Shown here piece by piece: positions 4,074 to 49,350 of a stretch of DNA of 64,000 nucleotides. Positions within the stretch are counted from its first letter, which is position 1. Each line of letters opens with the position of its first letter. This DNA comes from Rhodovulum sp. MB263 (GTDB lineage Bacteria > Pseudomonadota > Alphaproteobacteria > Rhodobacterales > Rhodobacteraceae), in NCBI RefSeq assembly GCF_002073975.1, contig NZ_CP020385.1, positions 124,001 through 188,000 of the forward strand. The letters are read 5' to 3'. The translations under genes and the position numbers were made by a program. A model generated the notes under the pieces. That model worked only from the letters and a program-made list of their open reading frames with translations, did no database searches and had not been told where the DNA came from.

Positions 4074-6533
4074 TCAGGCGGGTTGGCTGAAGACCGTCAC
4101 CGGCGGCAACGGGCCTTCAAAGCGTTCGACCTCGGCCATCGCGGTCTGGCCGCAATTGCCCTGGGCCAGTCTCGAGGTGGCGACACCCGTGGTCAGGTTG
4201 TTGATGTCGCCATAGGCGCAGAGGCTGCCGATCTTGCGCGGCTCGACAGGATCGAACCAGCCGCCCTCGCTGACCCGGATCACGCCGGGACGGATCACGT
4301 CGGTGATGACGAGCCCGGCGAGGATCTGGCCGCGCTGGTTGAAGACCCGCACCACCTCGCCATCGCTCAGCCCGCGCGCCTCGGCATCGGCCGGGTTCAT
4401 CCAGCACGGCTCGCGCCCCTGAACCGCATAGGTCTCGCGGATCGCGGTGCCGCAAAGCTGCGAATGCAGCCGCAGGTCGGGGTGGTTCGAGGCCACTGCC
4501 AGCGGGAAGACCGTGGTCGGTCCGCCAAGCCGCTCGATCGGTTCCATCCAGGTGGCATGCGGCGGACAGTCGTCATAGCCGTATTTCTCGATGGCGGTCG
4601 AATAGAGCTCGAACTTGCCCGAAGCCGTGCCAAGCGCGTTCAGAAGCGGATCGGCCCGGAAATCGGCATGGCGTACCCAGTCCTTTTGGGCGTCCTCCAG
4701 CGGGAAGGCCAGCGGCTTGTTGCTGTCCCAGAACGCGTCGAAGACGGGCATTTCCATGCCCTTGGCGCGGGCCTCGATCTTGGCGGCCTCGTAGAAGCCC
4801 CGGATCCAGTCCATCTCGCTGAGCCCCTGGGTGAACTCGTAGCCCCGGCCCAGCTTGTCGGCGATATCGGCGAAGATGTCATAATCGCTCCGCGCCTCGA
4901 AGACCGGTTCGACGATCTTCTTCATCGGAACGATATGGCTCAGCGCATAGTCGCCGACCTGCTCGATGTCGTTGCGTTCATAGGAGGTGGTCGCCGGCAG
5001 CACGATATCGGCATGGCGCGCCGAGGCGGTCCACTGGATGTCATGCACGATGAAGGTGTCGAGCCGGCGCCAGGCGCGCAGCATCTCGTTGCGGTCCTGG
5101 TGGTGCGAGAACGGGTTGCCGCCCGCCCAATAGGCCAGCTTGATCTCGGGCAGCTCGATCTCGTGGCCGTTGAACTGCATCACCTTGCCCGGGTTCAGCA
5201 GGGTCTCGACCAGCCGCGAGACCGGGATCGAGACCGCGCCGCTGGCCGCCAGCCAGGCCGCACCATCGACCTTGATCCCCGAGGCATCGTCGATGGCCTT
5301 CAGGATCGGCGTGGTATGGGTCGGCGCGCCGCCCGAGGCGTAGTGATAGCTCAGCCCGTAACCGCCGCCCGGCAGCCCGATCTGACCCAGCATCGAGGCC
5401 AGCGTGATCAGTGCCCAGTGGACCTGTTCGCCATGGTGCTGGCGCTGGGTCGAATAGCCGAGCGCCAGCATCGTGCGCTTGGCGGCGAAGCGGCGGGCCA
5501 GTTCGCGCAGCTTCTCGGCCGGAACGCCGCAGATCTCCGACGCCCATTCGGCCGATTTCGGCGTGCCGTCGGTCTCGCCCAGCAGATAGGGCAGGAACTT
5601 GTCGAAGCCGACGGTATAGCGGTCGAGGAAGGCCTGGTCATGCAGCCCCTCGGCATGCAGCGTATGCATGATGCCCAGCATCATCGCCACATCGGTCTGC
5701 GGCCGCGGCGCGATCCATTCGCTGTCCAGATGCTGCGCGGTCTCGGTGCGGACCGGGTCGATGCAGATCGACTCGACGCCCGCCTCCTTGATCTGGTCGA
5801 CGCCCCGGAACGAGCCGTGATCGGCGACCTGCCAGCAGATTTCCGAGTTGTTCAGCGGGTTGGCGCCCCAGAACACCATCAGCTCGCAGTTCTTGGCGAG
5901 GTTGTCCCAGGTCGTGCATTGCTCGTAGACCTCGATCGAGCCCGAGACATAGGGCAGGATCACCTGCGCCGCCCCGGTCGAATAGTCGCCGACCGAGTTG
6001 GTGTAGCTGCCGGTCAGGTTCAGCATCCGGCGCAGCAGGGTCTGACAGTTATGCAGCTTGCCCGGGCTCTTCCAGCCATAGGAACCGGCAAAGACCGCCG
6101 GATGGCCGTAGGTCTCGCGCACGCGGGTGATCTCGCCCGCGACCAGCTCGATGGCCTTTTCCCAGCTGACGCGGACGAAATCGCCCGAGCCGCGGCCGTC
6201 GGGATCGGCGCCGGGGCCCTGTTCGAGCCAGGCGCGGCGCACCATCGGATAGCGGATGCGCGATTCGGAATAGAGCGAATCGAGCACGCCCGGCAGCTGC
6301 GGCGAGGGCGCGGGGTCCCCCTCCCAGGGCTTGAACTCGACGGCGCGGCCGTCCTCGACCATGCCGTAGAAGACGCCCCAGTGACAGCCCGAGACGATGC
6401 CCTGGCTGGCGGTCTGGGCGGCGGCGCCGCGCGCGAAGAGCGGAAGCCCGGCAAAGCCGAGTCCGGTGGCAAGAGATCCTTTCAGGAAGCTGCGCTTCGA
6501 AAGGGGCAGGGAAGAATTGGAAATCGAAGTCAT
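4074..6533 (-). CDS. dorA: Periplasmic dimethyl sulfoxide/TMAO reductase, molybdopterin catalytic subunit
   Basis: This 819-residue protein is the terminal reductase of anaerobic DMSO/TMAO respiration, a bis-molybdopterin guanine dinucleotide enzyme. Key residues are visible: the GDYSTGAAQ segment carries the molybdenum-ligand Ser185, and GSYGWKSPG carries Tyr152 and Trp154. These match Ser147, Tyr114 and Trp116 of mature Rhodobacter DMSO reductase with a constant offset of 38. The Tyr is absent from E. coli TorA, so DorA is the better name. HSQLCGT and WMNPADAEARG lie in the C-terminal cofactor domain. There is no iron-sulfur Cys cluster, as expected for this family. The start at 6533 is chosen because AAAGGACAG precedes it. 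The leader is Tat-like but reads SKRSFLKG, with Lys13-Arg14 instead of two arginines. The gene follows dorD by an 11-base gap. Confidence 0.96.
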   Translation of the reverse strand: MTSISNSSLPLSKRSFLKGSLATGLGFAGLPLFARGAAAQTASQGIVSGCHWGVFYGMVEDGRAVEFKPWEGDPAPSPQLPGVLDSLYSESRIRYPMVRRAWLEQGPGADPDGRGSGDFVRVSWEKAIELVAGEITRVRETYGHPAVFAGSYGWKSPGKLHNCQTLLRRMLNLTGSYTNSVGDYSTGAAQVILPYVSGSIEVYEQCTTWDNLAKNCELMVFWGANPLNNSEICWQVADHGSFRGVDQIKEAGVESICIDPVRTETAQHLDSEWIAPRPQTDVAMMLGIMHTLHAEGLHDQAFLDRYTVGFDKFLPYLLGETDGTPKSAEWASEICGVPAEKLRELARRFAAKRTMLALGYSTQRQHHGEQVHWALITLASMLGQIGLPGGGYGLSYHYASGGAPTHTTPILKAIDDASGIKVDGAAWLAASGAVSIPVSRLVETLLNPGKVMQFNGHEIELPEIKLAYWAGGNPFSHHQDRNEMLRAWRRLDTFIVHDIQWTASARHADIVLPATTSYERNDIEQVGDYALSHIVPMKKIVEPVFEARSDYDIFADIADKLGRGYEFTQGLSEMDWIRGFYEAAKIEARAKGMEMPVFDAFWDSNKPLAFPLEDAQKDWVRHADFRADPLLNALGTASGKFELYSTAIEKYGYDDCPPHATWMEPIERLGGPTTVFPLAVASNHPDLRLHSQLCGTAIRETYAVQGREPCWMNPADAEARGLSDGEVVRVFNQRGQILAGLVITDVIRPGVIRVSEGGWFDPVEPRKIGSLCAYGDINNLTTGVATSRLAQGNCGQTAMAEVERFEGPLPPVTVFSQPA

Positions 6534-6544
6534 GGCCTGTCCTT

Positions 6545-7198
6545 TCAGATCCGCGCCGTGGCGGCGGGGTCGTGCAGGGGTTGGGCGGCGGCCTCCTCGG
6601 CCGTCATCAGGGTCTTGAATGCCAGCACCAGCCGGGCCAGCGCGCCGTAGAAACCGGCATCGTCGGCCTTGATCAGCGCGGCGGCGAAGCGCTCGCACCA
6701 GTCAAGCTCGTCCAGCAGGCGCGCCGCGATATCGGGGCGGCCGCGCCGCAGCGCCTCGGCCAGGGCCGCCAGCTCGACGCCGAGATGGTCGGCCATCTCC
6801 GAGCTGCCTTCGAGATGCACGTCGAGATCGCGCAGGATCTGCTGCATCCGCCCCACGGCGGGGCCGCAAAGCCGTCCGGTCCCGTCCCAGGGGCTGGCAT
6901 AGGGCGGCAGGCTGCGCTGCCGGAAGATGCCCTCGAACAGCGCCGTGTGGCGGCGTTCGAGCGAGACCGCGACCTCTTCGACAGGTCCGGCGGTGAGGAT
7001 CTGGCGGATCGCGTCGACCGCCGTCTCCTCTCCGAGATAGCCGCCGATGCGGCCCAGCGAGACCTGCCCCTGCATCGAGCGCAGCGACTGCAGGCTGTCG
7101 CGGTCGGGCGGGGTCAGCAGAAGCGAGGCGAGGAACTCGGCGATGAAGGCCAGGTCGGCGGCCTCCTCCTCGCCCATGTCGACAAGGGCCGCGGTCAT
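6545..7198 (-). CDS. dorD: TorD-family chaperone for DorA
   Basis: This 217-residue all-helical cytoplasmic protein has the TorD/DmsD family signatures RRHTALFEGIFRQRSLPPYAS (split around the PPY motif) and the later DHLGVELAALAEAL and DELDWCERFAAAL helices. Family members bind the Tat leader and the apo-form of the reductase, keeping it ready for molybdenum cofactor insertion before export. Its length is normal for the family. The ATG overlaps the TGA of dorC by four bases, and its stop is followed 11 bases later by the dorA start, so the order is dorC-dorD-dorA in one transcript. The gene called dorB in R. sphaeroides nomenclature is the same thing. The DorA leader it must recognise here is the Lys-Arg variant. 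Confidence 0.93.
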   Translation of the reverse strand: MTAALVDMGEEEAADLAFIAEFLASLLLTPPDRDSLQSLRSMQGQVSLGRIGGYLGEETAVDAIRQILTAGPVEEVAVSLERRHTALFEGIFRQRSLPPYASPWDGTGRLCGPAVGRMQQILRDLDVHLEGSSEMADHLGVELAALAEALRRGRPDIAARLLDELDWCERFAAALIKADDAGFYGALARLVLAFKTLMTAEEAAAQPLHDPAATARI

Positions 7199-8820
7199 TG
7201 CACCGACCCCTTGCTGACGTCGAGATCCTTCGAATGGTTCTGCAGATAGGCCAGGATCAGCCGGTACTGGTCATCGCTGAACGAGGTGAAGCGGCGCATC
7301 GCCTTCAGCGTCCCGATCCACTGGTTGGCCGTGAAATGGGTCTTCTGCGGCAGCACGTGGCAGGCGGCACAGGCCGTCTGGAAGGTATCCTGCCCATAGG
7401 CCCAGACCGCGGCGCGGTCGGTATTCATGCCCGCGGCATCGCTCCAGAGCGTGACCTCGGCCGGCACCCAGCTCTGGCCGGTATCGGCCGCGACCTCGGC
7501 CTCGCCGCGCGTCACGGTGGCGGCGGCGGCATCGTCGAAGATCGCCATCATCACCCGCTGGCCCTTCTCCTGGTAGAGCACCGTCGGCGCGTCTTCCATC
7601 TGCCAGCCGCGCAGCGTCAGCTGCACCTTGTCGCCGTCGCGTGCCGTGATCTCGGCGACAGCCCCGCCCAGGATCTTGCCGTCGGGCTGGTTCTCGGTGG
7701 CCACCATGTCGGCGCCGATCCAGACATTCTTGGTCTCGACCACGGTGGCGCTGTCGCCTTCCGCGATGGCCGAGGCGGGCGAGACCGGCAGTTGCGGCGC
7801 CTTGCCGACGGCCTGATCCAGCATCACCACGTGATCGGCATAGTTCGGCGCGGGCTGGCCCGGCGCCCGGTTCTCGACCGGAGGCACCGATTTCAGATAG
7901 ACCGCCATGGCCTGCACGTCCGAGAACGGCAGTTGCGAGGTATTGGCCACGACCTCGGCCATGTCGCCATCGGCCATCCGGCCGATCGGGTTCTTGCCGG
8001 TATGCAGGTAATTGGCGATCCGTGCCACCGACCAGTAGCCGATCCCGGTCTCGTCGGGCGAGATGTTCGGGAACCAGCCCGTGCCCTCGGGGTTCGGGCC
8101 GCCGCCAAAGCGCTTGTCGGTGATCACCTCGCCCATCGGGCCGCGCGGCGAGTGGCATTCGGCGCAGTGGCCCGCGCCCTCGACCAGGTATTCGCCCCGG
8201 TGATATACATCGGGGTCGACGCCGTCCGGCACCTCGCCGGGGGTCAGGGCCTCGCCGTCGAGGAAGGCCAGGCGCCAGACCCCGACGCCGCGACGCAGGT
8301 TGTAGGGGAAGTTCAGCTCGTGATCGGGGACCTCGGAGCGGACCGCCGGCAGCGACATGATATAGGCGTAAAGGTCGCGCGAATCCTCGCCGGTCAGCCG
8401 CTGATACGAGGTATAGGGGAAGGCCGGGTACAGGTTCTGGCCATCGGGCATCAGCCCGTCGGGACCGACGCCCTCGCGCAGCGCGCGGTCGAACTGGGCC
8501 AGGGTCCAGCTGCCGATGCCGGTTTCGGGATCGGGCGAGATATTGGGCATGTGGAAGATGCCGAAGGCGGTGTCGAGCGACCGGCCCCCGCCCAGATGGG
8601 TCTCATCTTCCGAGCCCGGGGTGGCGTGGCAGGTGGCGCAATCCGACGCCAGGAAGACCGTGCGGCCATTCTCGAGATCGGCGCCTTCCAGCGCGGGCAG
8701 CTCGCGGCTGCCGTTCAGTGCCGACCAGGTCCAGGGCGAGGTCACGACCAGAAATCCCGCCCCTCCCAAAACCAACAGGCTACCCGCCAGCTTCACCAGC
8801 GTACTTGCTTTGACTGTCAT
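7195..8820 (-). CDS. dorC: Trihaem c-type cytochrome, chimeric DorC/TorC electron donor to DorA
   Basis: The 541-residue protein has one N-terminal membrane anchor (about residues 9-27) and three CxxCH haem sites: CATCH at 61-65, CAECH at 219-223 and CAACH at 484-488. Residues 45-315 resemble the cytochrome subunit of membrane alcohol/gluconate dehydrogenases (GRSLDTAFGIFHMPNISPD, YPAFPYTSYQRLT, NYLHTGKNPIG). Residues 380-541 match the TorC/DorC C-terminal monohaem domain (CHVLPQKTHFTANQWIG, then MRRFTSF and AYLQNHSKD). Ordinary DorC/TorC has a NapC/NirT tetrahaem quinol dehydrogenase in front of that domain; it is missing here. The start at 8820 follows GGAGG. The role is presumably to pass electrons to DorA, but whether the donor is quinol, the bc1 complex or another cytochrome is open. 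Confidence 0.88.
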   Translation of the reverse strand: MTVKASTLVKLAGSLLVLGGAGFLVVTSPWTWSALNGSRELPALEGADLENGRTVFLASDCATCHATPGSEDETHLGGGRSLDTAFGIFHMPNISPDPETGIGSWTLAQFDRALREGVGPDGLMPDGQNLYPAFPYTSYQRLTGEDSRDLYAYIMSLPAVRSEVPDHELNFPYNLRRGVGVWRLAFLDGEALTPGEVPDGVDPDVYHRGEYLVEGAGHCAECHSPRGPMGEVITDKRFGGGPNPEGTGWFPNISPDETGIGYWSVARIANYLHTGKNPIGRMADGDMAEVVANTSQLPFSDVQAMAVYLKSVPPVENRAPGQPAPNYADHVVMLDQAVGKAPQLPVSPASAIAEGDSATVVETKNVWIGADMVATENQPDGKILGGAVAEITARDGDKVQLTLRGWQMEDAPTVLYQEKGQRVMMAIFDDAAAATVTRGEAEVAADTGQSWVPAEVTLWSDAAGMNTDRAAVWAYGQDTFQTACAACHVLPQKTHFTANQWIGTLKAMRRFTSFSDDQYRLILAYLQNHSKDLDVSKGSVQ

Positions 8821-8901: not shown

Positions 8902-8930
8902 TTGTAAGGAATTGTAAACGCGTCGTAAAC
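8902..8930. promoter_or_regulatory. Direct repeats in the dorC/dorS divergent promoter (candidate DorR box)
   Basis: The 193-bp gap between the divergent dorC and dorS genes holds three copies of T-T/C-G-T-A-A at 8902, 8912 and 8923, the last two extended to GTAAACG. Spacing of 10 and 11 bp puts them on one face of the helix, as is usual for OmpR-family response regulators such as TorR/DorR. The copies lie about 80-120 bases upstream of the dorC start. Binding by DorR is inferred from position and spacing only. Confidence 0.55.
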
Positions 8931-9013: not shown

Positions 9014-11419
9014 ATGCCCCCGACTGCCCCTCCCTCGGCAGGCCCGTCATCCTGGCCTGCCGACCGCCTCAGTGATGTTCTGTCCGGTGCCAGCGACGAG
9101 CTGGTCGACGAGATTCTGCGGCTTGGTGCGGCCAACGGCTTCACGGATCAGACAAGTTCGATGCGGGCGGCCTGGGTCGAATCGGTCGAGATCATCAATG
9201 CCTGCCTCGTCGCCAGCCTTTCCGTGCCCACGCAGGATGGCGGCGCCAACGGGCATAACGACTATGGCAGCGATCCCCGTTTCGCCGGGCTGCGCGAGGT
9301 CGCCTGGCGGCACCGCCGCTCGGGGGTGCCGCTCTGGCTGAACCATGGGCTGCTGAAATATTACCGTCGCGCCTATCTCGGGTTTTTCCGCGAATTGTCC
9401 GCCCATCGGGACGACGCCCCTGCCCTGCCCGCGCCCGAGGCACTGCTTGCCCGGCTCGATCTCTTCTTCGACGAGGTCGAACTGGCGATGCTGGCGCCCT
9501 GGTCCGAGACCGGCACCGAAGAGGCCGCGATGGCCGACCGGCTGCGGCGCCTCACGCGCGAGCGCGACCAGCTTTTCGGCGTGCTCGAAAGCCTGCGCGG
9601 CCCGGTCTTCATCGCCGATGAGGACGGCCGGCTGATCAGCGCCAACCGCGCCGCCATGCAGACCTTCCTCGGGCTCGACGAGGCCGGGGCGCTGGTCTAC
9701 CGGCTGGCGCTGCAATCGCGCCGCGACGAGCTGCAGCCCATCGTCGACGAGATCCTCGCCACCGAAGGCAGCCGGTGGAGCGCGATCTGGCTGCAGACCC
9801 AGTCGGGCAGCCGCTGCTTCGACATCCGGCTCGAGACCGTCGAGGACACCGTCTACAAGCTCGACCGCTGGCGCATCGTGCTGATGAACGACGTCACCGA
9901 CCATCAGCGCGCGATCGAGCTGGCGCGCGAGGCCGAGCGCACCATGTCGCTGTTTCTGGCCGCCATGAGCCACGAGATCCGCACCCCCCTTCACAGCGTG
10001 CTGGGCGCGGCCGAGCTGTTGCGGGACGTGCCGCCGCAGGATGTCGAGGAACGCACCCGGCTGACCGAGCTGCTCGACATCTCGGCCCGCGGGCTCAGCG
10101 CCACGCTCGAGAACGTGCTCAGCTTCTCGCGCTTCGAACAGCAGGCGCCGAAGCCGCGCCCGGCGCCGGTGGCGCTGGCCGAGATGCTGGAAAACCTCGT
10201 GCGCAGCCGCGATATCCTCGCCCGCCAGCAGGGCGTGCCGCTGATGCTGTCGCTGTCGGCCGATCTGCCCGACGAGGTCGCGCTCGACTGGTCGATGGTG
10301 CAGCAGATCCTCGGCAACCTGATCCAGAACGCGATCCGCCACGATGACGGGCGCGGCGTCGCGCTGGAGCTGAGCCGCGAAGAGGGGCCCTCGGGCGACG
10401 AGCTGGTCTTCGCCGTCACCGATCACGGCCCCGGCCTGCCCGCCCCGATCCGCGAGATGCTGATCGCCGCACCCACCGCGCTCCGGCCGCGCCCGACCGG
10501 ACAGTCGGGCTCGGGGCTGGGGCTGGCCATCGCCCAGCGGATGACGCTGGCCCATGGCGGCACCATCTCGGGCGGCTCGGCCGCGGGGCCCGGCGGCGGC
10601 GCCAGGATCGAGGTGCGGCTGCCGCTGGTCGCGGCAGAGGCCCCTGCCCCGGCCAAGCTGCCCGCCCGCCCCGCCGGCACGCTGTCCAGCAAGAGCTGCC
10701 TTCTGATCGACGACGACCCGGTCGGCGTCCTCGTCACCCTGGCCATGCTCGAACGCATGGGGCTGTCCGTCGACCATGCCCGCTCGCTGCGGCAGGCGGG
10801 CGCGCTCTGCCAGGCGCATCCCGAGGATTACGACCTCTTCATCGTCGATTACCGCCTGCCCGACGGCAATGGCGTCGATTTCGCCCGCTCGCTGCGGCAG
10901 AGCGGCACGCTGGGCGAGCGTCCGGTCTTCCTGCTCAGCGCCAATGTCGATCTGGTGCGCCAGGCCGACGGTCAGGCCGCGCTGTTCACCGCGCTTCTGG
11001 AAAAGCCGCTCGATGCCGGGGCGCTGGGGCGCGCGATCCGCAGCGGCACCCGCCCGACCCGCGCAAGCGCCCTGCTCGACGGGCTCTCGCCCGAGGCGCA
11101 GCGACGCATGGCCGAGGTCTTCTCGACGGGCTGGCAGACGTTCCGGACCCAGCTCGCGACCAGCGATGACAGCCAGCCCGACACCGCGCTGGCCGCTCTG
11201 GCTCACAAGCTGGCCAATGGCGCCGCGATCTTCGGCCGGACCGAACTGAACGCCGCGCTCCGCGCAGTCGAGCTGGCCTTCGATTCACCCGCCGCCAGCA
11301 CCCGGATGCGCGCCCTCTCCCGCGCCCGGGTGCTGGCCGCCGCCCCGGACGATCTGAACGCCCCGGAACCGAGCCGTCCGGATCTGGGCGGCCCTTCCGA
11401 TGAGACCCCAAAAGCATGA
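9014..11419 (+). CDS. dorS: Cytosolic hybrid sensor histidine kinase for DMSO/TMAO respiration
   Basis: The 801-residue protein has, in order: an all-helical N-terminal sensor region (about 20-165; the segment WRHRRSGVPLWLNHGLLKYY resembles RsbRD-type N-terminal domains); a PAS-like domain (185-295); a HisKA domain with phosphoacceptor His320 in AAMSHEIRTPL; an HATPase with DHGPGLP and GSGLGLAIA; a receiver with IDDDP and Asp612 in IVDYRLPDG; and an Hpt domain with His731 in LAHKLANGA. This His-Asp-His arrangement is that of TorS/DorS phosphorelays. Unlike TorS it has no membrane segment or periplasmic sensor, so the signal is probably sensed in the cytoplasm. It diverges from dorCDA and overlaps dorR by four bases. 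No good ribosome binding site precedes the start; the next Met is residue 50. Confidence 0.88.
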   Translation: MPPTAPPSAGPSSWPADRLSDVLSGASDELVDEILRLGAANGFTDQTSSMRAAWVESVEIINACLVASLSVPTQDGGANGHNDYGSDPRFAGLREVAWRHRRSGVPLWLNHGLLKYYRRAYLGFFRELSAHRDDAPALPAPEALLARLDLFFDEVELAMLAPWSETGTEEAAMADRLRRLTRERDQLFGVLESLRGPVFIADEDGRLISANRAAMQTFLGLDEAGALVYRLALQSRRDELQPIVDEILATEGSRWSAIWLQTQSGSRCFDIRLETVEDTVYKLDRWRIVLMNDVTDHQRAIELAREAERTMSLFLAAMSHEIRTPLHSVLGAAELLRDVPPQDVEERTRLTELLDISARGLSATLENVLSFSRFEQQAPKPRPAPVALAEMLENLVRSRDILARQQGVPLMLSLSADLPDEVALDWSMVQQILGNLIQNAIRHDDGRGVALELSREEGPSGDELVFAVTDHGPGLPAPIREMLIAAPTALRPRPTGQSGSGLGLAIAQRMTLAHGGTISGGSAAGPGGGARIEVRLPLVAAEAPAPAKLPARPAGTLSSKSCLLIDDDPVGVLVTLAMLERMGLSVDHARSLRQAGALCQAHPEDYDLFIVDYRLPDGNGVDFARSLRQSGTLGERPVFLLSANVDLVRQADGQAALFTALLEKPLDAGALGRAIRSGTRPTRASALLDGLSPEAQRRMAEVFSTGWQTFRTQLATSDDSQPDTALAALAHKLANGAAIFGRTELNAALRAVELAFDSPAASTRMRALSRARVLAAAPDDLNAPEPSRPDLGGPSDETPKA

Positions 11420-12099
11420 GCGCGACCGCCGACATCCTTCTCGTCGATGACGATGTGCTGGTACAGGTGATGGTCGAGGACATCGTCACCCAGCTCGGGC
11501 ACCGCTTCCACAACGCGGGCGACGGCGAGACCGCGCGCGATGCCATCGCCCGGAACGGCTTCGACCTGGTGATCCTCGACCGCCGCCTGCCCGATACCGA
11601 CGGGCTTTTGCTGGCGCCTCTCCTGCAGCAGGACCGCAAGATCCCCTTCATCGTCTTCTCCAGCCTCGATGCGCCCACAGATCAGGTGCTGGGGCTTGGC
11701 ATGGGCGCCAGCGACTATGTCTGCAAACCGGTCGAGCCCGCGGTGCTGCGCGCCCGCATCCAGGCCCGGCTCAGCGCCCGCCGCACCCCCGAGGACCAGA
11801 CCACCTTCCGGCTGGGCGACGCGCTCCGGCTCGATGCGGTGTCGCGCCGGCTCTGGGTCGCCGACCGGATCGAGGTGCTCTCGCCCGCCGAGTCGCGGCT
11901 GCTGATCTGCCTGATCCGCAATATCGGCAAGCCGCGCGACCGGATGCAGATCAGCATGGCGACCTGCGGCCGCGAATGGGTCTATGGCGACCGCACCATC
12001 GACGTGCTGATCTCGCGGCTGCGGCGCCGGCTCAAGGGCAGCGAGGTGCGCATCACCACCGTGCACGGGCTGGGCTATGTGCTGACCCTCGACAGCTAG
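11416..12099 (+). CDS. dorR: OmpR-family response regulator for the dor operon
   Basis: This 227-residue protein has an N-terminal receiver (acidic pocket Asp11-Asp13, phosphoacceptor Asp55 in VILDRRLPDTDG, conserved Lys in DYVCKPVEP) and a C-terminal winged-helix domain (SPAESRLLICLIRN, GDRTIDVLISRLRRRL, ITTVHGLGYVL). It is translationally coupled to dorS (ATGA overlap) and would receive phosphate from the Hpt His731. By analogy with TorR/DorR it should activate dorCDA through the 10-11 bp repeats between the two transcripts. Confidence 0.9.
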   Translation: MSATADILLVDDDVLVQVMVEDIVTQLGHRFHNAGDGETARDAIARNGFDLVILDRRLPDTDGLLLAPLLQQDRKIPFIVFSSLDAPTDQVLGLGMGASDYVCKPVEPAVLRARIQARLSARRTPEDQTTFRLGDALRLDAVSRRLWVADRIEVLSPAESRLLICLIRNIGKPRDRMQISMATCGREWVYGDRTIDVLISRLRRRLKGSEVRITTVHGLGYVLTLDS

Positions 12100-44000: not shown

Positions 44001-47000
44001 GCTGATCGAGTTCACCGGCAGCGGCTCGATTGCCGCGGACAGCGATCAGAGCGGCGACGAGCCGATCCGGAATGCCGGTCGGATCGTCACCGATGATGGC
44101 GGCGATGATGTGATCACGCTGGGCGGCGCGACCCCGAACGTGCTGGAGAATACCGCGACCGGCAGCCTCGGGATCGGCGCGAGCGACAGCATGATCGGCG
44201 CCGCGACCACGCTCGAGAATGCCGGAACGGTGACGATCGGTGTGGGTTCGACGCTGAAGCTGGCTGCGCTCGACAATTCGGCCAGCGGCAGCGTGACCAA
44301 TGACGGCCGGCTCGAGGCCGATACCGTGACCTCGGCGGGCCGCCTGACCAACAATGCGGGCGCCGAGATCGCGGCCGATGTCAGCAGCTCGGGTACGCTC
44401 GAGAATGCCGGGACGATCTCGGGCGATCTGAGCGTGACCGGCGGGACGGCGCGCAGCAGCGGCAGCCTGCAGGATGTGACGGTGTCGGACGGGACGCTGA
44501 CGGTGACGGCGGGCAGCCTGACCGGCCTGACGGTCTCGGGCGGCAGTGCCAGCCTGGAAGGCGGGGCGCTTTCGGGCGATCTCGCGGTCTCTGGCGGCGC
44601 GGCGGATGTCGATGTCGCGGTCGGCGGCAGCGCGGATGTGACCGGCGGCCGGCTCGGGATCGGGGCGGATGGCTCGGTCGCGGGGCAGACCACGGTCGGC
44701 AGCGCGGGGCGGCTCGAGACGGCGGGGCGGCTGGCCTCGCTGAGCAGCGCGGGCCAGGCCGACAACAGCGGCACGATCACCGGCGATGTGACGGTGACGG
44801 GCGGCCGGACCGACAACAGCGGCACGATCGGCGGCTCGGTGGCGGCCTCGGGCGGGAGCTTCCTGTCCTCGGGCACGGTCTCCGGCGATGTGGCGGCGAC
44901 GGGCGGGGCGCTGGCCTCGGTTTCGGGCCGGATCGACGGGGCGCTGACCGCGGGCAGCGGCTCGGAGGCGCGGGTGACGGGCGATCTGGCGCTCGGCGGC
45001 GGTCTCGGGATCGCGGATGGCGGCAGGTTCGACCTGCAATCGGGCCGGCTGACGCTGGCCGATGGCACCGCGGCGGTGAATGACGGCAGCGCCACCATCG
45101 GCGCCGGCACGCTTCAGGGCGGAACCTTCCGGAACCGCGACGGCGGCCAGCTGAACGTGAGCGCGGAGGGCCGTCTGGAAGCGGATCTGGTCAATGCCGA
45201 AGGCGCGCAGGCCGATATCGACGGCACCGTCACCGGAGCGGTGGACGTCACGGGCGGGCGGCTCGAGGCGGGAGAGGGCAGCACGCTTTCGGGCGGGCTT
45301 GCGGTCTCCGGCGGCAGCGCCGGGACGGCCGGGACGGTCTCGGGCGGGGTCTCGGTCACCGGCGGGCGCTATGACAACAGCGGCAGCGTCAGCGGCGGGT
45401 TGCAGCTTGCCGATGGCGCGGTCGGCAATAGCGGGACCATTGGCGGCGCTGTTTCTGTCGAGGGCGGGTCGCTCTCGAATGAGGGGCGGCTTTCGGGGAA
45501 TATCTCGGTCGGGGGCGGTCGGCTCGACAATACGGGCAGCATCGGCGGTTCGCTCGACGTCACCGGGGGCACGGCGAGCAACAGCGGCTCGGTCGAGGGC
45601 AAGAGCACCGTCGGCAGCGGCGGGGTCCTGGTCTCGGAGGGCGGGCAGTTCGGCGACGATCTGACCATCGAGGGCGATACGGGCAGCGGCGAGGGGACCT
45701 TGCGGCTGTCGGGCACGACCACGGTTGCGGGGGATGTGACCAATGATGGCCGCATCGAGACCCGGGGCGGGTCGGAGACCGCACTGACCCTGACCGATGG
45801 CGGCGGCTTCACCAATAATGGCCGGATCGCGGCCGAGGACGGGGCGCTGACGGTGACGGCCGGGACCATCACGATCAGCGACGGGGCCTCGATGTCGGGC
45901 GATATCGACTTCGTCGGGACGGTGGTGAACAAGGGCGAGCTCGACCTTCAGAACGATCTGAACGACACGCTCCGGACCGACACTGGCGGGCGGACGCGGA
46001 TCGTGGCCTCGCTCGACGGGGCGGGCCATGATGTCGAGAATGCCGGCAGCCTGGAGCTTGGCGCGGGCCTGTCCTTCACCGGGATCGGTGAGGTGTCGAA
46101 CAGCGGCACGGTCGAGATCGGTGCGGGCGGCCGGCTCGAGGCCGGGCGGATCGGGAATGCCGGCACGCTGAGGCTGGGCGCGGGGGCGGCGCTGGAAGGC
46201 ACCGGCAACACGCTCGACAATAGCGGGACGATCACCGTGGGCGATGGCGCCAGCGTGACCGATGCCGGCGCGATCGAGAACCGCGAGGGCGGGCTGATCG
46301 AGTTCACCGGCAGCGGCTCGATTGCCGCGGACAGCGATCAGAGCGGCGACGAGCCGATCCGGAATGCCGGTCGGATCGTTACCGATGATGGCGGCGATGA
46401 TGTGATCACGCTGGGCGGCGCGACCCCGAACGTGCTGGAGAATACCGCGACCGGCAGCCTCGGGATCGGCGCGAGCGACAGCATGATCGGCGCCGCGACC
46501 ACGCTCGAGAATGCCGGAACGGTGACGATCGGTGTGGGCTCGACGCTGAAGCTGGCCGCGCTCGACAATTCGGCCAGCGGCAGCGTGACCAATGACGGCC
46601 GGCTGGAGGCCGATACCGTGACCTCGGCGGGCCGCCTGACCAACAATGCGGGCGCCGAGATCGCGGCCGATGTCAGCAGCTCGGGTACGCTCGAGAATGC
46701 CGGGACGATCTCGGGCGATCTGAGCGTGACCGGCGGGACGGCGCGCAGCAGCGGCAGCCTGCAGGATGTGACGGTGTCGGACGGGACGCTGACGGTGACG
46801 GCGGGCAGCCTGACCGGCCTGACGGTCTCGGGCGGCAGTGCCAGCCTGGAAGGCGGGGCGCTTTCGGGCGATCTCGCGGTCTCTGGCGGCGCGGCGGATG
46901 TCGATGTCGCGGTCGGCGGCAGCGCGGATGTGACCGGCGGCCGGCTCGGGATCGGGGCGGATGGCTCGGTCGCGGGGCAGACCACGGTCGGCAGCGCGGG

Positions 47001-49350
47001 GCGGCTCGAGACGGCGGGGCGGCTGGCCTCGCTGAGCAGCGCGGGCCAGGCCGACAACAGCGGCACGATCACCGGCGATGTGACGGTGACGGGCGGCCGG
47101 ACCGACAACAGCGGCACGATCGGCGGCTCGGTGGCGGCCTCGGGCGGGAGCTTCCTGTCCTCGGGCACGGTCTCCGGCGATGTGGCGGCGACGGGCGGGG
47201 CGCTGGCCTCGGTTTCGGGCCGGATCGACGGGGCGCTGACCGCGGGCAGCGGCTCGGAGGCGCGGGTGACGGGCGATCTGGCGCTCGGCGGCGGTCTCGG
47301 GATCGCGGATGGCGGCAGGTTCGACCTGCAATCGGGCCGGCTGACGCTGGCCGATGGCACCGCGGCGGTGAATGACGGCAGCGCCACCATCGGCGCCGGC
47401 ACGCTTCAGGGCGGAACCTTCCGGAACCGCGACGGCGGCCAGCTGAACGTGAGCGCGGAGGGCCGTCTGGAAGCGGATCTGGTCAATGCCGAAGGCGCGC
47501 AGGCCGATATCGACGGCACGGTTGCCGGAGCGGTGGACAATGACGGCGAGATCGCGCTTGGCGGCACCATCGACGGCACGCTCGCAAATGACGGCACCCT
47601 CACGGTGGCGGCAGACGATACCGCCGCGATCACCGGCGCCATCTCGGGGCTCGGGTCCTATCTGGTGGCGGGCAGTCTCGATTTCGGCGGCAGCTTCGAT
47701 CTGGGCAGCCCGGGCCGCGCGAGCGCGACCGGCGCCCAGCTGAGCCTTGGCGAGAATGCCACCGTCACCGGAGATCTGCTGACGAGCTATGGCAGCGTCA
47801 CGCTGGCCGATGGCAGCCGGCTGGCAAGCGATCTGGTCTCGTATGGCCAGCTGCGGGCCTCGGGCAGCGCGACCATCGACGGCGATCTGACCCTGTCGGA
47901 TGGCGCGGTGCTGAGCCTTGCCGACGGCACGACCGGCGACCGTCTCGACGTGACGGGCGACGCCGAGCTGAACGGCACCATCGCGATGGATATCGACCTG
48001 ACCGATGGCGCCCAGAGCGCCGATGCGATCTATATCGACGGGGTCGCAAGCGGCAGCGTGGTGCTGGCCTTCAACGACCTGACCGCGGGCGATTACGGCC
48101 AGATCCGGGACCGGCTCGACCTGCTGTCCTACGGCTCGGATGGCGGGCTGTCGGTCCGCTCCACCGGGTTGCCCGGCAGCGGCAGCATCCTCTACCGGCT
48201 CGACCGCAATGACGCGGGCGACGGCTGGGGGCTGATCTCGGGGGCGAACCCGGCCTTCGGCGGGCTGGCCAGCGGGCTGGCCCTGACCCAGTCGCTGATC
48301 GGCTCGGTGGTGAACCGGCCGACCAGCCCCTATGTCTCGGGGCTGGCCTCGACCGAAGGCTCGCCCTGCGGCTGGGGCAGCTGGGGCCGGGCGATGGGCG
48401 GGAAGGCCACCGCCAGCGGCAATTCGCATACCGCTCTGGGCAGTTTCTCGACCGAGATCGATGCCAGCTATGGCGGGGTGCAGGCCGGGCTCGACTACAG
48501 CTGTTTCGACGGCGGCGAGGATGGCTGGAACCTCAGCTTCGGCACCATTTTCGGGCTCAATGACGGGTCGATCAAGCAGCCGGTCTATCTGTTCGATCCC
48601 GATACCGGCACCGTCAACCAGGGCATCCAGACCAGCCGCAACCATACCGACTTCCAGCAGCTCTATGGCGGGGCCTATGTCGGGGCCTCGAAGGGCCGGT
48701 TCTTCGCCGATCTGCAGGTCACCGTGAACCAGACCGATTTCGATCTGGAGAACCGGGTGGCCTCGGGCGCCTATGGCGAGCGGCTGGGGGTCGACGACCA
48801 GAGCTATGAAAGCACCGGGCACACGGTTTCGGGCACGATGGGCTATGCCTTCCCGCTGGGCGAGGACAGCGGCTTCAGCCTGATCCCGTCGCTTGGCTTC
48901 TCGATCAGCCGCACCCGGTCGGACGATCTCTATTTCAGCAACGACCCGGCCGATGACAGCGATGACGGGGTGCTGAAATTCGACCCGATCACCAACGAGA
49001 TCGGCTTCGCCTCGCTGACGCTGTCGCGCAGCCGGGTTCTGCCCTCGGGGGTGGCGGTGCTGAACGGGTTCGCCACCGCCACCGCCTATCACGACTTTTC
49101 CGACCGCTCGGTTGCGAAGTATTACGAGCTCGATGCAAGCGGCGCGCCGCTCGGGGCTCCGCTCTTGTCTGAGAATGACGGGCTCGGTAACTATGGCGAG
49201 CTCAGCGCGGGCTTCAACTATACCCGCGTCTTCGGCAAGGGTCAGGCCGGGGCGGCCCGGCAGATGGACGCCTCGGTGCGGGTCGACAGCCGGTTCGGCG
49301 ACGATCTGGAAGGCTGGGGCGTGACCGCGCAGATGCGGTTCCAGTTCTAG
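41089..49350 (+). CDS. Giant type V autotransporter adhesin-like protein
   Basis: Reading from ATG 41089 (AAGGGG upstream) gives 2,753 residues; an ATG at 40966 is possible. The N-terminus is an extended signal peptide (MVFVKKAGLSRVEGD... then LRSTTALAAVLSLGAAAAGA). The passenger, about 60-2400, is a long beta-helix made of hundreds of 'SGG..x..GT..G.V' and 'NSGTI.G' strands. The C-terminal 340 residues form the beta-barrel (GWGSWGRAMGGKATASG, YGGVQAGLDYSCF, SYESTGHTVSGTMGYAFPLG) ending in MRFQF, with the terminal Phe required for Bam insertion. It lies between the exb-type operon and tssK. Two copies of a 2.1 kb segment make its middle almost repeat itself. Confidence 0.93.
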   Translation: MVFVKKAGLSRVEGDSQPFQPQFRRFLRQALRSTTALAAVLSLGAAAAGAGTLYWSGQGDEGIWADPENWADGEDNPIEGDAPGLDGVPVGVVLKEAATGPLDLETGRATLSALELTGNSDAVLTNGTLTFALPDDASETAARLTVAGSGGFMDETLAFVLEDDLLVEASVDTGLAGDISGAGALRLRAAGDSEITLSGTNSQTGGTVIEAGTVVATGGAALSDGGSVTLAGGIDGRAASVLRIEQDETVGGLASAEGARGGLELAGGSLTVAGGPALSFGLAISGSGGLTVGDGTDLTLGAANSYAGGTRVSGGALTVAAGGNLGSGDVSVDRGSLMTNGAALSAGQNVTLGSGGLWTLAGDETVGGLDGTGTADLGGNRLDIALSEAETLAFGGSLKGSSDSLLALTGGGDFTLSGPLSDYRGGFRIEAGRLGLSDAGGALNDNALTLAGGTLVADLSDGFGGSVTTEAGSESAISAAAGSTLSLTGAMALSGDLSFSAEGEDAVIGLDMASVTLEEGVSLGFDLARFEIGSEAAAGMFAAAQGTRLGAGAALDLAGYDVGIRALTGSGRILTDSGDALLSLGEGTDFGGVLADGAAGRLSLETDGTVRLTGDNSLTGGTSVTGGSLTLAGGGRLGDIEIASAGRFVLEEGSAGAVVNSGTGSSNAGTIASLTQKEGSFGNSGTIGGAVSVEGGSLSNEGRLSGDVSVGGGRLDNTGSIGGSLDVTGGTASNSGSVEGKSTVGSGGVLVSEGGQFGDDLTIEGDTGSGEGTLRLSGTTTVAGDVTNDGRIETRGGSETALTLTDGGGFTNNGRIAAEDGALTVTAGTITISDGASMSGDIDFVGTVVNKGELDLQNDLNDTLRTDTGGRTRIVASLDGAGHDVENAGSLELGAGLSFTGIGEVSNSGTVEIGAGGRLEAGRIGNAGTLRLGAGAALEGTGNTLDNSGTITVGDGASVTDAGAIENREGGLIEFTGSGSIAADSDQSGDEPIRNAGRIVTDDGGDDVITLGGATPNVLENTATGSLGIGASDSMIGAATTLENAGTVTIGVGSTLKLAALDNSASGSVTNDGRLEADTVTSAGRLTNNAGAEIAADVSSSGTLENAGTISGDLSVTGGTARSSGSLQDVTVSDGTLTVTAGSLTGLTVSGGSASLEGGALSGDLAVSGGAADVDVAVGGSADVTGGRLGIGADGSVAGQTTVGSAGRLETAGRLASLSSAGQADNSGTITGDVTVTGGRTDNSGTIGGSVAASGGSFLSSGTVSGDVAATGGALASVSGRIDGALTAGSGSEARVTGDLALGGGLGIADGGRFDLQSGRLTLADGTAAVNDGSATIGAGTLQGGTFRNRDGGQLNVSAEGRLEADLVNAEGAQADIDGTVTGAVDVTGGRLEAGEGSTLSGGLAVSGGSAGTAGTVSGGVSVTGGRYDNSGSVSGGLQLADGAVGNSGTIGGAVSVEGGSLSNEGRLSGNISVGGGRLDNTGSIGGSLDVTGGTASNSGSVEGKSTVGSGGVLVSEGGQFGDDLTIEGDTGSGEGTLRLSGTTTVAGDVTNDGRIETRGGSETALTLTDGGGFTNNGRIAAEDGALTVTAGTITISDGASMSGDIDFVGTVVNKGELDLQNDLNDTLRTDTGGRTRIVASLDGAGHDVENAGSLELGAGLSFTGIGEVSNSGTVEIGAGGRLEAGRIGNAGTLRLGAGAALEGTGNTLDNSGTITVGDGASVTDAGAIENREGGLIEFTGSGSIAADSDQSGDEPIRNAGRIVTDDGGDDVITLGGATPNVLENTATGSLGIGASDSMIGAATTLENAGTVTIGVGSTLKLAALDNSASGSVTNDGRLEADTVTSAGRLTNNAGAEIAADVSSSGTLENAGTISGDLSVTGGTARSSGSLQDVTVSDGTLTVTAGSLTGLTVSGGSASLEGGALSGDLAVSGGAADVDVAVGGSADVTGGRLGIGADGSVAGQTTVGSAGRLETAGRLASLSSAGQADNSGTITGDVTVTGGRTDNSGTIGGSVAASGGSFLSSGTVSGDVAATGGALASVSGRIDGALTAGSGSEARVTGDLALGGGLGIADGGRFDLQSGRLTLADGTAAVNDGSATIGAGTLQGGTFRNRDGGQLNVSAEGRLEADLVNAEGAQADIDGTVAGAVDNDGEIALGGTIDGTLANDGTLTVAADDTAAITGAISGLGSYLVAGSLDFGGSFDLGSPGRASATGAQLSLGENATVTGDLLTSYGSVTLADGSRLASDLVSYGQLRASGSATIDGDLTLSDGAVLSLADGTTGDRLDVTGDAELNGTIAMDIDLTDGAQSADAIYIDGVASGSVVLAFNDLTAGDYGQIRDRLDLLSYGSDGGLSVRSTGLPGSGSILYRLDRNDAGDGWGLISGANPAFGGLASGLALTQSLIGSVVNRPTSPYVSGLASTEGSPCGWGSWGRAMGGKATASGNSHTALGSFSTEIDASYGGVQAGLDYSCFDGGEDGWNLSFGTIFGLNDGSIKQPVYLFDPDTGTVNQGIQTSRNHTDFQQLYGGAYVGASKGRFFADLQVTVNQTDFDLENRVASGAYGERLGVDDQSYESTGHTVSGTMGYAFPLGEDSGFSLIPSLGFSISRTRSDDLYFSNDPADDSDDGVLKFDPITNEIGFASLTLSRSRVLPSGVAVLNGFATATAYHDFSDRSVAKYYELDASGAPLGAPLLSENDGLGNYGELSAGFNYTRVFGKGQAGAARQMDASVRVDSRFGDDLEGWGVTAQMRFQF
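43131..45246 (+). repeat. First copy of a 2.1 kb in-frame repeat within the autotransporter
   Basis: This 2,116-bp block recurs 2,292 bp downstream (45423-47538). Comparing line by line I count about 16 mismatches, nearly all synonymous; the only amino-acid changes seen are Asp-Val to Asn-Ile near the start and Thr to Ala at the end. The period, 764 codons, keeps the frame. A separate 176-bp spacer (45247-45422) lies between the copies. Confidence 0.95.
45423..47538 (+). repeat. Second copy of the 2.1 kb autotransporter repeat
   Basis: This copy matches 43131-45246 at roughly 99% by eye. Differences cluster in the first 170 bases and in the last 30, suggesting the edges have diverged more or that conversion tracts homogenised the middle. 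Recombination between copies would remove or add 2,292 bp without a frameshift. Confidence 0.95.

Follow-up and report, generated by a model that had tools for sequence, protein, structure and literature searches.

In textbook TorA-type respiration of S- and N-oxides, electrons from quinol enter through a multihaem protein of the NapC/NirT family. The C-terminal domain of TorC has been proposed as the direct donor to TorA (PMC11727998). In the cytochrome subunits of dehydrogenases, a third haem domain meets the catalytic subunit (PMC9727119), and a hypothetical scheme has an AdhB-type subunit interacting with ubiquinone-10 (PMC4307304). Here we describe a gene of Rhodovulum sp. MB263 that unites parts of both families, a dehydrogenase-type dihaem module and the TorC C-terminal domain, in one chimeric cytochrome. 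The gene lies in positions 124,001 to 188,000 of contig NZ_CP020385.1; this 64-kb stretch, hereafter the window, belongs to a contig of 238,713 bases in a genome of 4,162,560 bases on three contigs. No title among the open-access PMC papers that we found describes the fusion, which appears to be a second input, so far undescribed, to the respiration of trimethylamine N-oxide (TMAO) or dimethyl sulfoxide (DMSO). Its parts are as follows.

7195..8820, minus strand: chimeric trihaem cytochrome of 541 amino acids (open frame, domain matches, 50 relatives matching both halves)
8743..8808, minus strand: N-terminal helix, residues 5-26, predicted as a likely uncleaved membrane anchor (hydropathy and AlphaFold model)
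7840..8679, minus strand: dehydrogenase-type (AdhB/FdhC-like) dihaem module, residues 48-327 (phmmer against PDB, Foldseek)
8626..8640, minus strand: haem-binding motif 1, CATCH, residues 61-65 (reading frame)
8152..8166, minus strand: haem-binding motif 2, CAECH, residues 219-223 (reading frame)
7219..7776, minus strand: C-terminal TorC domain with one haem, facing the reductase, residues 349-534 (TIGR02162 and NF011606, C-terminal part only)
7357..7371, minus strand: haem-binding motif 3, CAACH, residues 484-488 (reading frame)

The initial annotation had claimed three CxxCH sites at residues 61, 219 and 484, a front half of dehydrogenase type, a TorC-type tail and the replacement of the NapC/NirT module, and each of these features was recovered. 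The frame is uninterrupted and holds exactly these three motifs. The best PDB match of the front is 7w2j_C (phmmer, E = 1.3e-48), followed by 8hdd_B (9.8e-45), 8gy2_B (9.3e-44) and 8gy3_A (5.7e-41), which are cytochrome subunits of membrane fructose, glucose, alcohol and aldehyde dehydrogenases. Cytochrom_C and Cytochrome_CBB3 are the Pfam families over cut-off. The tail is recognized by two NCBIfam models, in both cases through their C-terminal part: TIGR02162 (torC) aligns residues 354-534 with model positions 205-383 of 387 (E = 1.8e-38), and NF011606 aligns residues 349-533 with positions 197-378 of 390 (E = 2.3e-31). With 132.8 bits against a curated cut-off of 478.2, the chimera stays below the threshold for a full TorC in TIGR02162. 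Both models match all 37 members of an alignment of chimeras (A2).

The NapC/NirT family (PF03264) gave no match to the chimera of the window at E<=10, and weak matches appeared in 5 of the 37 A2 members (best E = 0.014). None of 56 chimera rows, the window included, has a cluster of four CxxCH motifs within 200 amino acids or more than three such motifs overall, the rows having been selected for at least three. The third, dehydrogenase-facing haem domain of AdhB-type subunits was not found in the chimera either; five PDB matches spanning haem domains 1 and 2 stop at residues 316-327, and what follows is the TorC tail. Hydropathy peaks at residue 8 (2.09), and the AlphaFold model places a helix at residues 5-26. 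Directly behind it stands a TSPxTWS motif, invariant in 12 rows of one alignment and varied in other rows, and from this motif we read the anchor helix as uncleaved. Membrane anchoring and haem occupancy are predicted features of the protein. A possible change of ligand at haem 1 is marked by Met91, present in 56 of 56 chimeras versus a Met in 8 of 39 stand-alone dihaem rows; Phe134 is common to all rows of both sets.

For the front, a predicted structure gives the same picture. The full-length, haem-free model, built on the 37 chimeras of A2, has a mean predicted local distance difference test score (pLDDT) of 79.3 and a predicted template modelling score (pTM) of 0.57. A2 comprises the window and 36 of the 48 loci with a three-haem frame, and a further alignment, A3, the window and 28; L083 and L084 were entered as the matched stretch. 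Foldseek returned five matches for this model at E<=0.001, among them 8jej_C (1.6e-17), 8gy3_A (3.3e-17), 8gy2_B (4.9e-17) and 7w2j_C, all with E<1e-15; identity is 36-38% over about 280 columns for 8gy2_B, 7w2j_C and 8jej_C and 31% over 308 for 8gy3_A. The tail modelled by itself, also without haem, reached a mean pLDDT of 88.5 and a pTM of 0.84, and no solved structure in PDB resembled it at E<=0.001 by Foldseek. A profile search of PDB sequences with the tail found nothing convincing (best E = 0.055, to an NAD(P)-dependent oxidoreductase). A viral protein family with function unknown, phrog_15761, matches the same tail region, 7219-7776 (E = 5.8e-31).

Relatives were collected by a scan of genome contigs in which the best 80 of 254 were kept, so that more loci may exist. 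Fifty of the 80 match both halves and 30 the front only. The 50 two-half loci span seven orders, with 36 records from alpha-, 7 from beta- and 7 from gammaproteobacteria, and 48 of the loci hold a single open frame with three CxxCH motifs (only frames with three or more were considered). Among plasmid records, 7 of the 721 matching cover at least 80% of the query, and the chimera of Rhodovulum sulfidophilum DSM 1374 shows 93% identity to that of the window. A frameshift or assembly artefact as the origin of the fusion is ruled out by two-half relatives in 22 named genera, with 3 of the 50 loci lacking a genus name, and by the plasmid records. Two loci, L051 (Rhodoferax antarcticus) and L066 (Commensalibacter intestini), have an interrupted copy of the gene, through either decay or sequence errors; the frame of L071 starts past the anchor, and L081 begins at a contig end.

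Co-occurrence with dorA is complete in this set: each of the 50 two-half loci is followed, on the same strand, by a TorA/DorA homologue with 61-89% identity to the reductase of the window; in L052 this copy runs off the contig. TorD turned up in 46 of the 50, and a Cereibacter record lists no torD. The available flanks of the 30 front-only loci, by comparison, hold no DorA, TorD or tail match.

The trait is patchy, with a full-length match in 7 of the 16 searched genomes of the window's genus. Among 289 class-level genomes, 4 gave a tail match (one being the chimera of the window, the others three frames of TorC size), and among 394 family-level genomes 13 did, five of which have the chimera; these counts indicate that chimera and TorC tail types are both rare, although scoring in some genomes covered only 8 of as many as 15 first-look candidates. 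A genome of the window's family (G022, locus L036) encodes a free single-haem TorC tail of about 244 amino acids, comparable to TorB of Campylobacter jejuni, and has three five-haem TorC-type proteins as well.

The evolutionary origin of the chimera was examined in three trees. For the front, one branch (bootstrap 100, Shimodaira-Hasegawa-like approximate likelihood-ratio test, SH-aLRT, 96) separates 56 chimeras from a contrast set of 39 stand-alone dihaem and two three-haem AdhB-type rows; on the next branch are two stand-alone proteins of Xanthobacteraceae. The tails of the same 56 chimeras separate (100/97) from 21 five-haem TorC proteins and one single-haem tail. In the reductase tree, computed with a quick method, one branch (SH-aLRT 96) parts 53 chimera-linked from 15 TorC-linked enzymes. 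All three parts, front, tail and reductase, are set off by a branch from the counterparts sampled, a pattern that fits a single fusion inherited with its reductase. The trees are unrooted, long branches were flagged in all three, and the sampling of TorC is small. L051 and L066 were dropped from all three trees and L003, L013 and the partial L146 from the reductase tree, to which the canonical loci L130, L132 and L143-L145 contributed no row; the L052 reductase is truncated by its contig. Partial reductases from L024 and L025 and near-identical rows (Bartonella, Azospirillum and Rhodovulum pairs) were retained. Domain composition, operon and co-inheritance with the reductase are shown here for the chimera.

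In the window, the operon runs from the chimera through torD to torA, and a regulator pair faces it on the other strand.

6545..7198, minus strand: TorD/DmsD-type chaperone (PF02613, 2.5e-13, over cut-off; NF003442 TorD, 2.8e-12, below curated cut-off)
4074..6533, minus strand: TorA/DorA-type bis(molybdopterin guanine dinucleotide) molybdoenzyme, an S/N-oxide reductase (TIGR00509, 1110 bits, cut-off 1017.55; NF011682, 949, cut-off 909)
9014..11419, plus strand: TorS-related hybrid histidine kinase, HisKA-HATPase-REC with weak PAS and Hpt, divergent (TIGR02956 torS, 5.4e-62, below cut-off)
11416..12099, plus strand: OmpR/PhoB-family response regulator (matches the PhoB model best, with TorR ranking third; no match reaches its cut-off)
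8914..8929, minus strand: TTTAC-N6-TTTAC direct repeat, candidate response-regulator site upstream of the chimera gene (sole copy in the window)

The start codon of the chaperone overlaps the stop codon of the chimera, and the reductase starts at 6533. This enzyme passes the TorA model NF011682 as well as TIGR00509 and fails TIGR02164 (torA; 912 against a cut-off of 1465). For this reason "TorC-type" is a safer name for the chimera than DorC, the one given by the initial annotation. By eye, the export signal of the reductase (6470-6533) reads KRSFLKG, with lysine-arginine in place of a twin arginine.

The kinase/regulator pair faces the operon in the window and in 15 of the 50 loci. TorS is a membrane protein, unlike the kinase of the window, which has no hydrophobic segment over 1.6 in the hydropathy profile and no Pfam match at E<=10 in its first ~185 residues, and is probably cytosolic. 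The TTTAC-N6-TTTAC repeat occurs once in the window and in none of 100 shuffles of it. Of 17 other loci with the pair, 12 carry it upstream of their chimera gene, versus 0 of 26 loci without the pair, a count that covered 26 of the 35 pair-less loci, with 12 occurrences in all in 712,175 bases of 43 loci on one strand; the loci bearing it are partly close relatives (Azospirillum, Rhodopseudomonas) and hence not independent. The repeat is a good candidate for the operator of the regulator pair. Elsewhere in the window, a tandem-repeat pattern at 44477-44855 recurs 2292 bases on, at 46769-47147, which suggests a duplicated gene region.

Which quinol could supply such an operon was surveyed in 51 genomes, several of them metagenome-assembled. 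For menaquinone synthesis, menD was over cut-off in one of the 51 (Afifella); all 51 have matches below cut-off, which we read as related thiamine-diphosphate enzymes. PF02621 of the futalosine pathway was over cut-off in none, with two matches below; the window's own genome has no gene for menaquinone synthesis over cut-off. From these two results, ubiquinol is likely to be the quinol of nearly all carriers.

Set beside what has been described for the two parent families (PMC9727119, PMC4307304, PMC11727998), the fusion appears to combine the quinone-side part of the dehydrogenase cytochromes with the reductase-side part of TorC. The chimera would be a periplasmic trihaem cytochrome, tied to the membrane by its anchor and devoted to the adjoining TorA/DorA reductase, its dehydrogenase-facing third haem domain having been exchanged for the TorC domain. 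Electrons would pass from ubiquinol to the front haems, then to the tail haem and the molybdenum site, and finally to TMAO or DMSO. The dihaem module of a dehydrogenase cytochrome, run in reverse, would act as a ubiquinol dehydrogenase replacing NapC/NirT. We infer the ubiquinol site, the direction of electron flow and the substrate of the chimera/reductase pair, and we favour, with moderate confidence, a membrane-anchored conduit from ubiquinol to TorA in which a reversed dihaem module takes the place of NapC. The initial annotation had held that the replacement implies a different electron input. An exchanged input module is indeed what we find; the donor itself may still be ubiquinol, taken up at a different site, as the kin of the module are described as ubiquinone-reactive (PMC4307304).

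Several observations weigh against the ubiquinol conduit, as do the points that favour input from the bc1 complex, given further below. The direct route from ubiquinol to TMAO offers only about 40 mV. A quinone site was not located in the chimera, and its domain packing is unsure, given the full-length pTM of 0.57 and models without haem. In E. coli, strong binding of TorA was assigned to the full TorC and to its NapC-type half (PMC11727998), so that loss of this half should cost docking. NapC/NirT, moreover, is present in part of the carriers, with a PF03264 match in 19 of the 50 chimera genomes and none in 31. Eight of these 19 genomes, picked for long frames (386-486 amino acids), were read, and all eight frames are of the five-haem TorC type with a tail match. 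In L140, L141, L142 and L147 such a TorC stands beside a full-length TorA homologue; in L146 the TorA homologue is partial, and the stretch examined in L143-L145 has none. At least four carriers thereby combine the chimera with a canonical TorC that adjoins a second, full-length TorA homologue, and some cells have both wirings, chimera and TorC. The idea that the chimera is a mere substitute for a missing NapC is rejected as a general rule by the 19 genomes with NapC/NirT. The initial annotation had raised two results as counter-evidence, a complete NapC/NirT gene next to dorA elsewhere on the replicon and similarity of the front end to NapC, and neither came up: the chimera of the window gave no PF03264 match at E<=10, as stated above, and PF03264 had no match in the window's own genome (0 of 4 scored candidates), with E. 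coli positive among 14 control genomes. As a separate observation, the five-haem TorC-type gene of L143 (5555-7936, Azospirillum brasilense BR 11650) adjoins an open reading frame that by eye, from the listing of frames, resembles a dihaem cytochrome c peroxidase and not TorA.

The bc1 complex could feed the dihaem front, directly or via cytochrome c, as Qcr is proposed to feed TorB in C. jejuni, with the tail serving TorA. A cytochrome c1 family is over cut-off in 49 of the 51 genomes, the misses (G708, G732) being metagenome-assembled, which would allow this route in nearly every carrier, but such presence says little, as the bc1 complex is common in the carrier orders and was counted in carriers alone. 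A weak QcrC match (NF050122) is found in 22 of the 37 A2 members (best 8.1e-8) and might be taken as a sign of kinship with bc1. The nearest precedent is C. jejuni itself, where TMAO respiration depends on Qcr, a free monohaem protein of the TorC-tail type is the proposed link and TorC is absent (PMC6195509); that case, however, runs on menaquinol. The same source puts ubiquinone at +90 mV and TMAO at +130 mV and regards the reduction of TMAO by ubiquinol as unfavourable where the chain has to work against the proton-motive force. By this argument, direct oxidation of ubiquinol is favoured over input through bc1, since ubiquinol is the likely sole quinol in 50 of the 51 genomes, and we consider the bc1 route unlikely, if a serious alternative.

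Two further readings fare worse. A periplasmic dehydrogenase might reduce the front directly and so couple alcohol, sugar or aldehyde oxidation to the reduction of TMAO or DMSO, as the kinship of the front with dehydrogenase cytochromes would allow. The dehydrogenase-facing third haem domain is exactly the part that is gone from the chimera, which makes this coupling highly improbable; that five records annotate no PQQ (pyrroloquinoline quinone)- or GMC-type membrane dehydrogenase near the chimera speaks against it weakly, their gene tables being incomplete and other oxidoreductases being present. We also hold very unlikely a role of the chimera as auxiliary electron carrier, or one used in repair, for a reductase acting on another substrate, such as methionine sulfoxide. 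The substrate is predicted from sequence, and four genomes of Halomonadaceae that have a canonical TorC next to a second TorA homologue would leave room for such a role; yet the reductase of the window passes the TorA cut-off of NF011682, and the operon faces a TorS/TorR-related pair in the window and the 15 loci named above.

The ubiquinol conduit invites a wider and more tentative proposal, which we regard as possible though somewhat doubtful: the chimera may represent a class of NapC-independent respiratory ubiquinol dehydrogenase. In that case the quinone-side dihaem module of periplasmic dehydrogenases would have been reversed a single time in evolution, when the TorC domain took the place of its dehydrogenase-facing haem domain, and would have travelled together with a TorA clade of its own into alpha-, beta- and gammaproteobacteria, where it would form a second standard wiring of S/N-oxide respiration. 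The same reductase-facing domain with an exchanged input module, in a widespread operon, is a clean natural experiment. If the conduit is real, it would show that a dehydrogenase dihaem module works both ways and explain how bacteria without NapC and menaquinone could respire TMAO or DMSO. The identification would also correct records, five of which label the chimera "c-type cytochrome", "cytochrome c" or, under the gene name cycG, "diheme cytochrome c"; the record of R. sulfidophilum DSM 2351 uses cycG.

Compared with known systems, the chimera resembles pentahaem TorC/DorC (NapC/NirT plus the TorC C-terminal domain) in its predicted membrane anchor, its operon with torA and torD and its C-terminal monohaem domain. 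Unlike them, it has no NapC/NirT tetrahaem half, carries three haem sites in place of five and scores below the TIGR02162 cut-off. With the AdhB/FdhC/GdhB-type subunits (8gy2_B, 7w2j_C, 8hdd_B, 8gy3_A) it shares the first two haem domains; it differs in the TorC domain that replaces the third and, within the incomplete tables of the five records, in the lack of an annotated PQQ/GMC-type dehydrogenase nearby. The nearest relatives of the front, at up to 49% identity, are stand-alone anchored dihaem cytochromes (CycG-like, some labelled "diheme cytochrome c"), which bind two haems in frames of about 300-360 amino acids and, unlike the chimera, have neither a TorC tail nor DorA/TorD in the examined flanks of all 30 loci. 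TorB of C. jejuni (Cj0265) likewise has the TorC C-terminal haem domain without the NapC half, but it is a separate soluble monohaem protein without a dihaem front, and its proposed feed is Qcr, from menaquinol (PMC6195509).

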